From: JBHIBR01 sp046759145 [NCBI: Nitrospinota bacterium]
GTDB lineage: Bacteria > UBA8248
NCBI GenBank assembly: GCA_046759145.1
Contig: JBHIBR010000141.1
Location: 1 to 5,449 of the forward strand
Reading direction: 5' to 3'
Length of the DNA stretch: 5,449 nucleotides
Shown: positions 2 to 5,449 of the stretch, piece by piece
Layout of the letters: every line of letters starts with the position of its first letter
Position numbering within the stretch: position 1 is the stretch's first letter
Translations under genes and position numbers: made by a program
Notes under the pieces: generated by a model
Seen by the model: the letters and a program-made list of their open reading frames with translations, nothing else
Told to the model about the DNA's origin: nothing
The model's database searches: none

Positions 2-2428
2 GTCTTCTACCGCCCGTGGGAGGCGGCGCGGGGGGCCGCCCTGCCCCTGGCCGTGGCGCTGGTGACGGCCCTTCTCGCCGCCTGGCGCGTGGCCCTCTGG
101 GTGGAGCAGCCGGACGCCGTCCGCAGCATCCTCTACCTCTGGCCCCTCCCGGTCCTCCTGCTGCCGGCCCTCTGGGCGGGGCGCGAGATCCGCCGGCACT
201 TCGCGCCGCACCCCTCGTTCCGCCTGCCGCAGAGCTTCGTCATGGGGACCAACTTGGTGATGCTGTCGTTGGCTGCGGGCGCCGCCATATACCTCTTCTC
301 CCAATACGTCGAGCTCTCCGACCGCACCGGCGCCCCCAACTTCGCCGACCTGCGCGCGGGTTTCGTCCTGATCTGCCTCGCGGTGGAGATGTGCCGTCGC
401 TGCTTCGGGGCGACGCTTCCGATTCTCTCCACCCTCTCCATCGTCTACGGAATGTGGGGCAACCTGATGCCCGGCCCCCTGCGCCACGGGGGACAGGGGT
501 GGTCGGAGCTCCTCGGGAAGCTCTCCACCGACTTCATCGGCGGCGTGCTGGGCTTCCTGGTGGTCATCTCTTCCACCTTCATCATCATGTTCCTCCTCCT
601 CGGCGCCTTCCTCCAGGAGTCGGGCGCCGCGCGCTTTTTTGTGAACTTCTGCCTGGGCCTCTTCGGGCGGCTGCGGGCGGGCGCCGGGTTCGCCGCCGTG
701 GGCAGCAGCGCCTTCATGGGCACCGTCTCGGGCAGCGCCTCGGGCAACGTCGTCACCACGGGCACCTTCACCATCCCGCTGATGATGCGCACGGGCTACA
801 GCCCCCACATCGCGGCCGCAGTGGAGGCCTCCGCCAGCAGCGGGGGGCAGATCATGCCCCCGGTGATGGGCGCGGGCGCCTTCATCATGAGCGAGCTCAT
901 CGAGGTGCCCTACGTCAAGATCATCGGCTACGCCGCCATCCCGGCCATCCTCTACTTCCTCATCGTGGGGATCAACCTGCAGTTCGCGGCAGGCAAGCTC
1001 GACCTTCAGCGCATCCCGCCCGAGGAACTCCCCGACTGGCGGGCGGAGTTGCGGCGGGGCTGGATCTACCTGTTGCCCCTAGCCGTCCTGGTCTACTTCC
1101 TGATCGAGGGATATACGCCCGTGTTCGCCGGGGTGTGGGCGGTCTTCGTCATGGCTGCGGTATGGATGCTCCAGCAGGGCTACTTCGGTCTCCGCGCCCT
1201 GGGCCGCGCGCTCTGGTACGCCGCCATCCCGGCGACGGTGGCGGCGCTCCTGCTGGTGGTCTACGGCGTCCAGAGGACCCTCTACGCCCTCTTGCCCGCC
1301 GCGGCTGCACTGGACAGTCTCGTCTACCCCTTCGAGTTCCTCTACCACGGGGCCGTCTTCTTCCTCCTCGCCACCGGCCTCCAGGCTCTCCTGCTCCGCC
1401 TCCTGGGCAGCCGGCGGGAGGGGGACGCCTCACCCCTGCGGCTGGGCGAGGTGGCGACCCTCCTGTGCAACCCGTTCCTCTACGCCCGGCGGTTTCGGGC
1501 CCGAGGAGAGGCCGCCCCGGACGTGGCCGCGGCGGTGGCGACCCGCAGCTGGTTGCGCAGTGTGCTCCGGGCGCTGGCGGTCGGCGGCCGGCAGGGGGCG
1601 GAGTTCGGCGTCACCTTGGCCACCATCGAGCTTGTGGTCCAGGTGCTCTCCATCACGGGCGTCGGCAACAAGATGAGCCTGCTCATCGAGAGCCTGGCGG
1701 TGGACGTGTGCTTCCTGGGCGAGGCCGCGGGGGGCGGCTGCGCCTGGGGCCTGGGGATCGACGGCTTCCTGGTGGGCCTCCTCCTCACCGCGGTGGCCTG
1801 TGCCATCCTGGGGATGGGGATGCCCACCACCGCCGCGTACGTCCTGCTGGCCATCCTGGGCGGGCCGGTTCTCATCAGTCTCACCAAGCCCGTCCTGGTC
1901 GGCCTCGGGGGTCCCGAATGGGCCCAGGCCATCGTCGCCATCCGGGGCGAGAGGGTGGCGGCCCACATGTTCATTTTTTATTTCGCCATCCTCTCCGCCA
2001 TTACGCCCCCGGTGGCCATCGCCGCGCTGGTGGGCGCCAAGATGGCCGGGGCCCCGTATTTCAAGACCGCCTTCACCGCCCTCAAGTTCGCCATCGTGGG
2101 GTTCGTCGTGCCCTTCCTCTTCATGTATATGCCGGGCATCCTTGCCCTGACGGAGCCGCTGGAAGTGCTGCGGGTCTCCTTCTCCACCCTGCTGGGCTTC
2201 ATCGCCCTCTCGGCCTTCTTCCAGGGCTACCTCCTCGCCCCCACGAGCCTGCTGGACCGCCTGTTGCTGCTCCTGGCGGGGCTGAGCTTCTTCCTTGTCG
2301 GCCTCCGGGGCGAGCTCCTTTGGGGCGTGCTGGGCGTCGTCCTCGGCTCGCTGGCGGTGGCCAAGCAGATGGGTTGGAGCCGGGCCCGGAGGCCGGAGAG
2401 GCGCCTCGCGGGCGGTGGGGGCGGCTAG
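2..2428 (+). CDS. TRAP transporter fused permease (DctQM-type, 4TM/12TM fusion), 5'-truncated
   Basis: This is an inner-membrane permease of a tripartite ATP-independent periplasmic (TRAP) transporter. It would import a substrate delivered by a periplasmic binding protein, driven by an ion gradient. The frame is open back to base 2, giving at least 808 codons in view. The first GTG (53) lacks a good ribosome site, so the true start probably lies outside the window. Numbering from that GTG, residues 1-130 hold about four hydrophobic helices (the DctQ-like part). Residues 215-280 are the first DctM signature, with GSASGNVV at 227 and GGQIMPPVMGAGAF at 264. Residues 586-596 carry the second, LGMGMPTTAAY, followed by FYFAILSAITPPVA at 642. 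Residues 373-511, normally a short connector, are long and hold extra hydrophobic stretches. No binding protein is visible; one may lie upstream. Fused permeases of this kind usually work with TAXI-type binding proteins (family knowledge). The substrate cannot be told. Confidence 0.93.
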   Translation, partial: VFYRPWEAARGAALPLAVALVTALLAAWRVALWVEQPDAVRSILYLWPLPVLLLPALWAGREIRRHFAPHPSFRLPQSFVMGTNLVMLSLAAGAAIYLFSQYVELSDRTGAPNFADLRAGFVLICLAVEMCRRCFGATLPILSTLSIVYGMWGNLMPGPLRHGGQGWSELLGKLSTDFIGGVLGFLVVISSTFIIMFLLLGAFLQESGAARFFVNFCLGLFGRLRAGAGFAAVGSSAFMGTVSGSASGNVVTTGTFTIPLMMRTGYSPHIAAAVEASASSGGQIMPPVMGAGAFIMSELIEVPYVKIIGYAAIPAILYFLIVGINLQFAAGKLDLQRIPPEELPDWRAELRRGWIYLLPLAVLVYFLIEGYTPVFAGVWAVFVMAAVWMLQQGYFGLRALGRALWYAAIPATVAALLLVVYGVQRTLYALLPAAAALDSLVYPFEFLYHGAVFFLLATGLQALLLRLLGSRREGDASPLRLGEVATLLCNPFLYARRFRARGEAAPDVAAAVATRSWLRSVLRALAVGGRQGAEFGVTLATIELVVQVLSITGVGNKMSLLIESLAVDVCFLGEAAGGGCAWGLGIDGFLVGLLLTAVACAILGMGMPTTAAYVLLAILGGPVLISLTKPVLVGLGGPEWAQAIVAIRGERVAAHMFIFYFAILSAITPPVAIAALVGAKMAGAPYFKTAFTALKFAIVGFVVPFLFMYMPGILALTEPLEVLRVSFSTLLGFIALSAFFQGYLLAPTSLLDRLLLLLAGLSFFLVGLRGELLWGVLGVVLGSLAVAKQMGWSRARRPERRLAGGGGG
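2425..2428. other. Shared palindromic stop (CTAG) of two convergent genes
   Basis: The four bases CTAG read the same on both strands. The + strand TAG at 2426-2428 ends the TRAP permease, and the - strand TAG at 2427-2425 ends the last gene of the opposite operon. The genes therefore overlap by four bases tail to tail and leave no room for a terminator between them. Each transcript must end inside the other gene's coding sequence. This is read directly from the sequence. Confidence 0.9.
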
Positions 2429-2838
2429 GAGCGGCGGGCGCGGGCGGCGGGGTCCTTCATGGCCTCGCGCCGGTCATCGCGGACGATGAGGGCGTGCCCC
2501 CGGCACCAGCGCCTCAGGTTTTCCGACTCTTGCTCCAACTCATAGGGCAAGCGCGCCAGCTGTGAGCGCCGGGCCCGCAGGTAGTGGATGCGGTCCTGGT
2601 TGAAGCGCTGGTGTTCGATGAGGCCCTTTAGCTGGGCGGCGGCTTCTTTCTCCGCCCTGTCGGCGGCGGCGAGTGCCGGTTGTCGGGCGGCCAGTACCTG
2701 CCGGAGCTGGCGGCACTCCGAGGAGGACCGCAGGCGGCTCAAGAGGCCCAGAGCGGCGATTCCGAGGGCGAGCGCCAAGAGCAGGAGGTCGGCCGTCTCC
2801 ATCCCCCGGGCGAGGAAGGCCTCCAAGAGGGGTCTCAT
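2425..2838 (-). CDS. Small membrane-anchored helical protein, unknown function (second of a coupled pair)
   Basis: I do not recognise this 137-residue protein. Residues 14-35 (from METADLLLLALALG) form one clear hydrophobic membrane segment. It is followed by an Arg-containing stretch (SRLRSSSECRQLRQ), which suggests a short outside N-terminus and a cytoplasmic C-terminus. Residues 38-115 are rich in Ala, Leu, Glu, Gln and Arg and look like a long amphipathic helix or coiled coil. The tail (116-137) is highly charged. There are two cysteines (42 and 112) and no catalytic motif. The start is chosen at ATG 2838 because it forms an ATGA overlap with the stop of the upstream gene (2837-2835). The frame stays open further back, but a longer start would overlap that gene by about 145 bases. 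No strong Shine-Dalgarno is close, so translation is probably coupled to the preceding gene. Calling it a real gene rests on the overlap, the clean membrane segment and the matching partner. Confidence 0.75.
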   Translation of the reverse strand: MRPLLEAFLARGMETADLLLLALALGIAALGLLSRLRSSSECRQLRQVLAARQPALAAADRAEKEAAAQLKGLIEHQRFNQDRIHYLRARRSQLARLPYELEQESENLRRWCRGHALIVRDDRREAMKDPAARARRS

Positions 2839-3239
2839 GGGGCGTCGTCCCAGGCTCTCCAGTCCGAGCCCCGGAAGCGGTCCGCGTCGGGGTGCTTCTC
2901 CCAGTGCTCCCGGACCTCGCGCAGGAACTTGACCTTGCCGGGGAGACCGGTGTCTTCCAGGGCCTTCTCCCGGCCCCACACCTCTTCTTCGAGCTGGGAG
3001 AGGAGCTTGATCTGCTGCGGGAGGAGCCTTCCCTGGAAGGTCCCGAGGGATTGCTGGGCGCGGCGGAGGTTCGCCTCGTGGCGCTGGCGGGCGGTCCGCT
3101 TCTGCGCAATGGCGCGGTTGAGGCGGTCCCGTTCCCTCATCCTACGGTAGTAGGACCGGATGTACCAGGCCCCGGCCAGGAGGAGCAGGCCGATCTCGGC
3201 GCCCATTCTTATGTCGACCAGGTAGGCAGCCTCGGGCAC
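2835..3239 (-). CDS. Small membrane-anchored helical protein, unknown function (first of a coupled pair)
   Basis: I do not recognise this protein of about 134 residues. Near the N-terminus a hydrophobic segment (MGAEIGLLLLAGAWYI, about residues 12-28) is followed at once by a strongly basic run (RSYYRRMRERDR). By the positive-inside rule this puts the C-terminus in the cytoplasm. Residues 30-110 are highly charged and helix-prone with many Gln, Arg, Glu and Leu, consistent with a coiled coil. The end is rich in Trp and Asp (SDWRAWDDAP). The preferred start is GTG 3239, which has GGAGG at 3249-3245 with a 5-base spacer. GTG 3245 (two residues longer) overlaps that ribosome site, and ATG 3206 has no good one. 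It lies in the same reading frame as the upstream helicase, about 39 bases after its stop, and its own stop overlaps the next start as ATGA. It is therefore likely co-transcribed with both. Confidence 0.75.
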   Translation of the reverse strand: MPEAAYLVDIRMGAEIGLLLLAGAWYIRSYYRRMRERDRLNRAIAQKRTARQRHEANLRRAQQSLGTFQGRLLPQQIKLLSQLEEEVWGREKALEDTGLPGKVKFLREVREHWEKHPDADRFRGSDWRAWDDAP

Positions 3240-3244
3240 CTGCA

Positions 3245-3249
3245 CCTCC
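3245..3249 (-). promoter_or_regulatory. Ribosome binding site GGAGG deciding the GTG 3239 start
   Basis: On the - strand the bases GGAGG are followed by the spacer TGCAG and then GTG at 3239. This is a near-ideal Shine-Dalgarno and spacing for that codon. The GTG at 3245 shares its first base with the motif, which argues against it being the main start. Confidence 0.6.
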
Positions 3250-3278: not shown

Positions 3279-5449
3279 CTATAGCAATCCCCGGGCCGGG
3301 CGCAAAGCCCGAGGCGGCTCCACCCCCTGGCGGGCTCGCGCCAGGAGCCCCTCCAGCGTCCAGTCCAGGGGGATCCTCACCTTGCCTTTCCCCTTGCGCT
3401 CCAGCAGGAGGTGGCCCCGCTCCAGGCCGAAGCAGAAGAGCTCTCCCGTGAGCGCGGCGTCCGCGCGGCAGTACTCCAACACCTTCTGCCGTTCCCCCGC
3501 CCGCCACCAGGCGAGGGACTGGAGCCCATCGGCGAGCTTCGCCGCCCCCAGGGTGGCCTGGGCGAGTGCCCCCAAGCTGGGGCGGAAGCCGATCCGGCCC
3601 GCCAGGTCTCGCAGCATGTCGAAGGTGGGGAGGGCGCGGGCGAGGTCGACCCGGGAGTGCGCCCGCAGCACCTGGTAGTCAAAGCCCAGGATGTTGAAAC
3701 CCACCACCAGGTCGGCCCCCCGGAGGGCAGCCAGCAGGGAGGGGGCTTGCTCTTCCAGGTATTCTTCAACTCCCCCCTCCGGCCAACGCCAGAGCACGGC
3801 GCAGGCGAGGCCCATCCGGTCGGCCCGCTCCCAGCCGCCCACCTCCTCGGCGCTGCGCTGGGTCTCGAGGTCGAGGACGAGGACCCGGGGCGCTCTCGCG
3901 CGGTCGGGGAGAGCGCGGGGAGGTTCGGCTCTCCTCGGCTCCAGGGGCGGGGCGTCGCCCTCCTCCCGGGGAGGGAGTTCTTCCCTCCCGAGCACCATCC
4001 GGAGGACCCAGATGGCCGCCTCCTTGTCGAGGGGGTAGTTGCCCGAGCCGCACTTGGGCGAGTGGACGCAGGAGGGGCAGCCCCCCTCGCAGGGGCATGC
4101 CTCCACCACCTCCAGGGTTTTGGCAAAGAGAGCCTCCGCCTGCTCGAAGCCTTGCTCGGCGAGGCCGACCCCACCCGGGTGGCCGTCGTAGAAGAAGATG
4201 GCCCCTTTGCCCACCTGGGGGTGGAGGGGAGTGGAGATGCCCCCGATGTCGTCCCGGTCACACAGGGCGAAGAGGGGGAAGAGGCCGATGGCGGCGTGCT
4301 CGGCGGCGTGGATGCCGCCCATGAAGTGGAGCCCCCGCGCGGCCACCCCGCGGGCGAGCGCCTCCTCCAGCTCCACCCAGAAGCCCACCGTCTCGAAGGT
4401 GGTGGGGGGGAGCTCCAGGGGGTGCACGCCGAGTCGCTCCTGCCGGGCGGTGGAGCGCTTCTCGTAGCCCGTAATGTGGGTGGTGACCCGCAGGCGGCCG
4501 AGGTGCAGCCGGGCGTTGCCCAGGGAGCGGCTCCGCTCCCGGGTGAGGATCTCCGTCTCCTTCTCGGTGCGGGCGCGGGTGAAGTAACGGGCATCGGAGG
4601 GGCGCACCCGGACGTTGCGCCGCTCGAGGTCGAGAGCCGCCACCTCGTACTGGCGCCCCCGGTGGAGGTAGATGGCCCCCGGGTGGCACTCGGTGAGGGC
4701 CTGGTGGCCGTTCACGTGTCCGATGGGCTCGGCTCGACTGAGCTCGCCGAAGTCGGACCCCTCGAGGATGGCGAAGGACTCCCCTGCCCCCCGGAGGTCC
4801 ACCCGGCGGTGGGGCCGTCTGCGCGCGGCGAACCAGCGCTCCCCCTCGGCGCTCCGCAGGAGTTCCCCCTCATCCTCCAGTTCCCCGGCGGCCCGCCGCC
4901 AAGCCCTTGGGAGGGTGGGCTCCCCCCCCTCCAGGGGCAGCTCCGCCGCCGCGCAGGGGAGGTGCTGGGCGAGGAGATAGGGGTTCTCCGGGTCGAGGGT
5001 GGCCCGCTCGAAGGGGCGCCCAAAGAAATCCTCCGGGTGGGTGACGAGGTACTGGTCCAGGGCGTCGCGCTCGGCGATGAGGGCGATCAGGCTCTCGCGC
5101 TCGCCTCGTCCCACGCGCCCGCCCCGCTGCCAGGTATTGATGATGGAGCCCGGGTAGCCCACCAGGATGCAGACGTCCAGCCCGCCGATGTCCACCCCGA
5201 GCTCGAGGGCGCTGGTGGAGACCACCCCGGCGAGCCCACCTCGCTTGAGCTGGCGCTCCACCTGGCGGCGTTCCTCGGGGAGAAAGCCCGCCCGGTAAGA
5301 GCTCACCCGCCCGCGGAGCTCCGGGTGAGAGCCGAGGGTCCAGGTGTAGATGAGCTCCGCGGCCCGGCGCCCTTTGGTGAAGACGATGGTCTTGAAGCCG
5401 GCCAGCAGGGCCCGGGCGAAGAGCCGGCTCGCCACGGTGTGGGCGCTCA
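3279..5449 (-). CDS. DEAD/DEAH-type helicase with DUF1998-type Cys cluster fused to DEDDy exonuclease (MrfA-MrfB-like), N-terminus cut off
   Basis: This is the C-terminal 722 codons of a large DNA helicase-nuclease, probably cytoplasmic and acting in DNA repair. The ATP-binding first RecA domain (motifs I-III) lies beyond the window. Residues are numbered from GTG 5435, an internal codon. The second helicase domain is at 1-140: IVFTKGRRAAELI, motif V STSALELGVDIGG (73-85) and motif VI QRGGRVGR (103-110). Residues 150-345 are a family-specific middle region. Residues 348-480 match the DUF1998 type, with a Cys cluster C447-x-C449-x3-C453-x2-C456-x5-C462 (4050-4097), likely metal-binding. A Pro/Glu/Arg-rich linker (484-516) leads to an RNase H-fold exonuclease domain. 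Its catalytic residues are D522/E524 (DLET), D586 (NILGFD) and Y655/D659 (YCRAD), a complete DEDDy set. In B. subtilis, MrfA and MrfB are separate neighbouring genes for mitomycin C damage repair, in the same helicase-then-nuclease order. Alternatives include other DUF1998-linked helicases, some found in phage defence. Confidence 0.9.
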   Translation of the reverse strand, partial: SAHTVASRLFARALLAGFKTIVFTKGRRAAELIYTWTLGSHPELRGRVSSYRAGFLPEERRQVERQLKRGGLAGVVSTSALELGVDIGGLDVCILVGYPGSIINTWQRGGRVGRGERESLIALIAERDALDQYLVTHPEDFFGRPFERATLDPENPYLLAQHLPCAAAELPLEGGEPTLPRAWRRAAGELEDEGELLRSAEGERWFAARRRPHRRVDLRGAGESFAILEGSDFGELSRAEPIGHVNGHQALTECHPGAIYLHRGRQYEVAALDLERRNVRVRPSDARYFTRARTEKETEILTRERSRSLGNARLHLGRLRVTTHITGYEKRSTARQERLGVHPLELPPTTFETVGFWVELEEALARGVAARGLHFMGGIHAAEHAAIGLFPLFALCDRDDIGGISTPLHPQVGKGAIFFYDGHPGGVGLAEQGFEQAEALFAKTLEVVEACPCEGGCPSCVHSPKCGSGNYPLDKEAAIWVLRMVLGREELPPREEGDAPPLEPRRAEPPRALPDRARAPRVLVLDLETQRSAEEVGGWERADRMGLACAVLWRWPEGGVEEYLEEQAPSLLAALRGADLVVGFNILGFDYQVLRAHSRVDLARALPTFDMLRDLAGRIGFRPSLGALAQATLGAAKLADGLQSLAWWRAGERQKVLEYCRADAALTGELFCFGLERGHLLLERKGKGKVRIPLDWTLEGLLARARQGVEPPRALRPARGLL

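Follow-up and report, generated by a model that had tools for sequence, protein, structure and literature searches.

Two overlapping small genes behind a helicase-nuclease gene may encode a membrane-anchored helical pair

In the peripheral stalk of ATP synthase, b and b' each cross the membrane once, carry a long helix in the cytoplasm and are encoded by adjacent genes. Known members of the FtsB/DivIC family face the periplasm, and the partner in an Rz/Rz1 spanin pair is a lipoprotein with a lipobox cysteine. YprA helicases that are fused to MrfB, or encoded beside it, form a DNA repair branch, for which the accessible part of a preprint describes no conserved neighbours other than MrfB-type nucleases (PMC12458937). 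Here, we analysed two small genes, A and B, that follow a helicase-nuclease gene in a 5,449-nucleotide stretch of DNA (the window, meaning the whole stretch).

Gene A (2835–3239, minus strand) encodes 134 residues, beginning with GTG at 3239 and ending with a stop codon at 2837–2835, while gene B (2425–2838, minus strand) encodes 137 residues from an ATG at 2838 to a stop that ends at 2425. The start of B thus shares the letters ATGA (2835–2838, minus strand) with the stop of A. A sequence-only reading of this DNA had described two adjoining genes of nearly equal length with this overlap, placed about 39 bases behind the helicase; both minus-strand frames are open as it described, and the gap is 39 bases, with the helicase stop ending at 3279. 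Gene A has a good ribosome site in the upstream letters (GCGCGGAGGTGCAG, followed by GTG), with a GGAGG at 3245–3249 on the minus strand, 5 nucleotides from the GTG. For gene B, an ATG at 2802 is a second possible start, 36 bases further in and directly preceded by GGGGG; if this codon were used there would be no ATGA overlap, so the overlap of the two genes is likely but not certain. On the other side, a gene for a TRAP transporter fused permease (2–2428, plus strand, 5' end outside the window) is convergent with gene B, and their stop codons overlap in CTAG (2425–2428), leaving zero intergenic space. Between 2200 and 3500 we found no promoter match and no terminator-like site on the minus strand; the two terminator-like sites in this interval, against 0.8 expected, both lie on the plus strand. 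No Rfam match was found within the window.

Open length alone means little at a GC content of 71%, since base composition predicts that about 8% of 137-codon frames would contain no stop. Both frames, however, carry a coding signature: GC by codon position is 0.71/0.45/0.90 in gene A and 0.75/0.49/0.88 in gene B, next to 0.76/0.51/0.91 in the helicase gene and 0.67/0.48/0.94 in the TRAP gene, and this pattern is absent from all three plus-strand ORFs tested. Of six frames, the two minus frames expected to be coding were the only ones in which codon scores trained on the helicase and TRAP genes exceeded zero, reaching +0.42 bits per codon for the frame of gene A in its half and +0.35 for that of gene B in its half. 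Codon adaptation was 0.68 for A and 0.62 for B, compared with 0.73 and 0.73 for the two training genes and 0.29–0.47 in the three plus-strand frames. On coding pattern and codon usage, A and B are very probably both real genes.

A membrane segment is clear in the product of gene B (KD19 2.29, best window residues 18–36). The hydrophobic N-terminal segment of A, which by our own reading spans roughly residues 12–27, is borderline: its best KD19 of 1.46–1.47 falls short of the level of 1.6 applied in this test, and the stretch holds D, R and E. Of the earlier proposal that each protein has one membrane segment, the part concerning B is thus borne out and the part concerning A is left borderline. 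In both products a long charged helix follows the N-terminal segment, and A also has a charged tail. Net charge over the 15 residues C-terminal of the best hydrophobic window is +4 in A and +2 in B, with −1 on the N-terminal side of each, a distribution that favours cytoplasmic tails, the charge rule being not decisive. AlphaFold models, each built from one sequence, predict that both proteins are nearly all helix, with helices at 3–97 and 100–115 in A (pLDDT 78.8, low pTM of 0.36) and at 2–36, 40–95 and 97–128 in B (pLDDT 82.8, low pTM of 0.45). Sequence and prediction together back the description of mostly helical, probably membrane-anchored proteins with the tail inside. The further label of coiled-coil-like is unproven: none of six shuffle tests for heptad or hendecad periodicity (3.5, 3.6 and 3.667 residues) in the two tails was significant (p 0.05–0.93), and the label is better read as a long charged helix because the periodicity does not stand clearly above shuffled sequences.

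How far the gene arrangement speaks for a partnership can be judged from base rates. In the accessible text of one study, same-strand pairs spaced at −8 to +10 nucleotides encode complex subunits in 30.4% of cases in E. coli and 45.2% in H. volcanii, compared with 6.8% and 5.6% for pairs beyond +20 nucleotides, and the contrast is smaller among COG pairs from 1,695 species (35.5% versus 22.5%) (PMC10666635). The statement that such an overlap is usually a sign of interacting partners made in equal amounts is, against the short-distance figures given there, too strong; that A and B interact is plausible from these base rates, which are its one ground, and it is plausible that they work as a unit. 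Our best single reading, held tentatively and supported mainly by this base rate of complexes among short-distance pairs, is a pair of helical proteins anchored in the membrane as a hetero-oligomer. Both genes would be real, apparently confined to their lineage and of no detectable kinship to each other, with translation of B probably coupled to that of A by termination and reinitiation at the ATGA. A single N-terminal segment would most likely anchor each product in the inner membrane, leaving a helical tail with positive charge on the cytoplasmic side, and the two tails would probably assemble into a membrane-anchored stalk of helices, a hetero-oligomer and perhaps a heterodimer, that may tether or space something at the membrane; the pair would lie behind the helicase by position, not by function. 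Points against this reading are the low pTM values of models built from one sequence each, the minority share of complexes even among short-overlap pairs, the lack of a heptad pattern, the weak segment of A and the uncertain start of B.

A and B might also belong to no complex at all, being small membrane proteins specific to the lineage, unrelated and non-interacting, that merely have a transcript in common; we rank this reading a close second. The majority of short-distance pairs encode no complex (69.6% in E. coli and 54.8% in H. volcanii, in the accessible text of PMC10666635), coiled-coil periodicity is not clear, and A and B show no sequence kinship (BLASTP E 2.6; global z 0.27). Their like size and layout, together with the ATGA overlap, speak against mere passengers, neither point being decisive.

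That the two genes were unrecognised is upheld by family searches, in which neither protein had a match at E ≤ 0.001 in Pfam, NCBIfam, PHROG, PADLOC or the PDB, nor exceeded any curated cut-off in the first four. The best PADLOC value was for B with Aga_Helical-REase (E 0.0087, 13.3 bits). Searched by sequence against the PDB, A had no match at E ≤ 1 and B a best E of 0.13; searched by fold, the two models had 0 matches at E ≤ 10. We judge the sub-threshold scores of A (DivIC) and of B (Rz-like spanin, PADLOC) to be generic for small proteins that combine a membrane segment with a long helix. The Rz-like scores of B (PHROG E 0.031 and 0.09, LysB E 0.56), of which the best is not significant, would fit a remnant of phage lysis genes in which B is the inner-membrane spanin. 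The product of gene A has 0 cysteines, lipobox cysteine included, and so cannot be the lipoprotein partner. The charges favour an inside tail, though such a rule does not settle topology; the neighbouring genes encode a repair helicase and a transporter, and the viral contigs yielded no confirmed relative of B. We hold this spanin reading to be the least probable of those considered.

Relatives of A were absent from the genome contig collection, and neither A nor B had relatives in viral contigs or plasmids. Tblastn of A against the helicase loci gave best values of E 0.016 (L015) and 0.013 (L025), which we take as chance. Across three sets of whole genomes, searched with a threshold of E ≤ 0.01 per genome, A matched in 3/64, 5/395 and 0/63 genomes and B in 0/64, 4/395 and 2/63, the 63 partly overlapping the 395; the numbers expected by chance are about 0.6, 4 and 0.6, making 3/64 for A and 2/63 for B slightly high. 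These 14 rows correspond to 13 distinct places, eight of them in open frames of 221–1377 residues, longer than A or B, and the remaining five containing in-frame stops. The best match, for A, has E 3.4e-4 and lies in a frame of 380 residues (genome G254). At E ≤ 1, gene A had two of six weak matches. There is apparently no convincing relative of A or B, so far as sequence comparison can tell, and orphan here means within the collections searched, whose sampled groups are distant. An empty relative search that lacks a positive control is uninformative, and absence is weak evidence, since the analysis reached no genome closely related to the source organism.

The earlier suggestion that the pair anchors or regulates the helicase called for a survey of helicase neighbourhoods. 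We collected 24 helicase loci from the genome contig collection (47–54% identity) and further loci, at most 57% identical, from the best-scoring 30 of 136 matching genomes, 6 new of 21, and 8 of 16; removing 4 with fewer than 500 bases downstream and 3 duplicates from these 68 left 61. The hydrophobicity cut-off of the screen was set at 1.42, as gene A itself would be missed at 1.7. Two small ORFs with a hydrophobic N-terminus stood behind the helicase in 0 of the 61 distinct loci (47–57% identical relatives), a count that is only a moderate argument against a role with the helicase because gene order is often lost at such identities. A single such ORF was found in 7 of the 61, four of which have, by our own reading, lipoprotein-like GC starts. 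Other motifs appear downstream: a NusG-like motif lies within 1.5 kb of the helicase in 19 of 61 loci and ComF-like and YkgJ-like motifs in 8 each, some loci having both, while 32 have none of the three (motifs and labels are our own). The NusG-like motif recurs as ALYVQVNHEK or ALYVQVNHER in L003, L009, L010 and 16 other loci. In L022, no in-frame stop occurs from the end of the helicase match to the end of the NusG-like frame (about 5610 to 6219), which could reflect either a fusion of the two at this locus or a sequence error.

Lying 39 bases behind the helicase and sharing its strand, the pair could still be its membrane anchor or regulator. By the accessible text of PMC10666635, however, a 39-nucleotide gap falls in the uncoupled class, and the repair branch is reported, in the available part of PMC12458937, to have no conserved context except MrfB. 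Together with the survey, a moderately strong test at these distances, this makes a helicase anchor unlikely in our estimate, and a functional link of A and B to the helicase, for which position alone argues, is not supported. A more specific version, a dedicated inner-membrane anchor that holds an MrfA–MrfB-type fused repair machine, or its DNA, in an unsampled bacterial lineage, is more unlikely still. For a repair helicase to be tethered to the membrane in this way would, if true, come as a surprise.

The helicase gene itself (3279–5447, minus strand, 5' end outside the window) is present as its 3' part and encodes an MrfA/YprA-type protein with Helicase_C, WHD_HRQ1 and MZB domains and, at the C-terminus, a DEDD 3'-5' exonuclease-like domain. 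The MZB/DUF1998 zinc-binding domain matches PF09369 (E 1.4e-23; 83.8 bits, cut-off 24.2), the C-terminal half of the core matches PF00271 (E 4.7e-12), its N-terminal half lying outside the window, and the HRQ1 winged-helix model is also matched. The best NCBIfam model, TIGR03817, scores 491.6 bits, under its cut-off of 874.1, with the protein truncated here. In the fused nuclease domain, D15, E17, D79 and D152 are invariant in 16 of 16 aligned sequences, the window's included, in keeping with the conserved acidic residues of the RNase H-like fold, and 15 of the 16 match RNase_H_2 (best E 1.9e-10). The window's copy (3312–3914, minus strand) is a divergent member that keeps the acidic residues, has no RNase_H_2 match and reaches only PF10108 (E 0.069). 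A PDB profile search with the domain returned no DEDD nuclease by name, its best entries being KtrA (E 0.0045) and 'ancestor of diDNase' (E 0.051). The C-terminus looks like a DEDD nuclease domain, and an MrfB-type nuclease thus seems to be already fused to this helicase; from this fusion we infer that it belongs to the repair branch.

One helicase tree placed the window near the root with weak support, and a quick tree placed it on a long branch beside the G004/L013 group (98% SH-aLRT). The L013 helicase, from a record titled Gemmatimonadaceae, forms with eight from the genomes of its group a clade that stands apart from those of Desulfobacterota and, in one quick tree, adjoins the window; the name of the L013 record may not fit its kin. 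In the phylum of genome G005, 0 of 198 helicases matched at E ≤ 1e-200. No helicase relative was confirmed in viral contigs, and the 78 plasmid records found were all below 60% identity, none covering 80%.

The TRAP fused permease has at least 808 residues, of which 77–783 align to positions 54–602 of TIGR02123, pointing to a large insert in the predicted protein. Most open frames among the relatives listed span about 610–740 residues, the longest 799. Close kin were lacking: 13 of 19 genomes match at E ≤ 1e-30, with a best E of 1.6e-68.

For the source lineage, the nearest helicase relatives reached are at most 57% identical. If A and B do pair up, they would join the uncharacterised families of small membrane proteins from coupled genes, which would be useful for annotation.

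Set beside the described systems, B resembles Rz-like spanins in its N-terminal segment, long helix and weak PHROG scores, and differs in having no lipoprotein partner, the opposite predicted topology and no recognised phage genes in the window. A resembles FtsB/DivIC in being small, with an N-terminal membrane segment and a helix, and scores 12.6 bits with PF04977, short of the cut-off of 28.9 (E 0.13); its charges, however, favour the cytoplasm. The neighbouring gene is like MrfA/YprA with a fused MrfB-type nuclease in its Helicase_C, MZB and C-terminal DEDD-like nuclease domains; that family excludes A and B, its reported partner, in the accessible text, being a nuclease and not membrane proteins. 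Although A and B have no match to ATP synthase b/b' families at E ≤ 1 in Pfam or NCBIfam, and no ATP synthase gene was recognised in the window, they recall b/b' by analogy in their predicted single-pass design, long cytoplasmic helices and adjacent genes.
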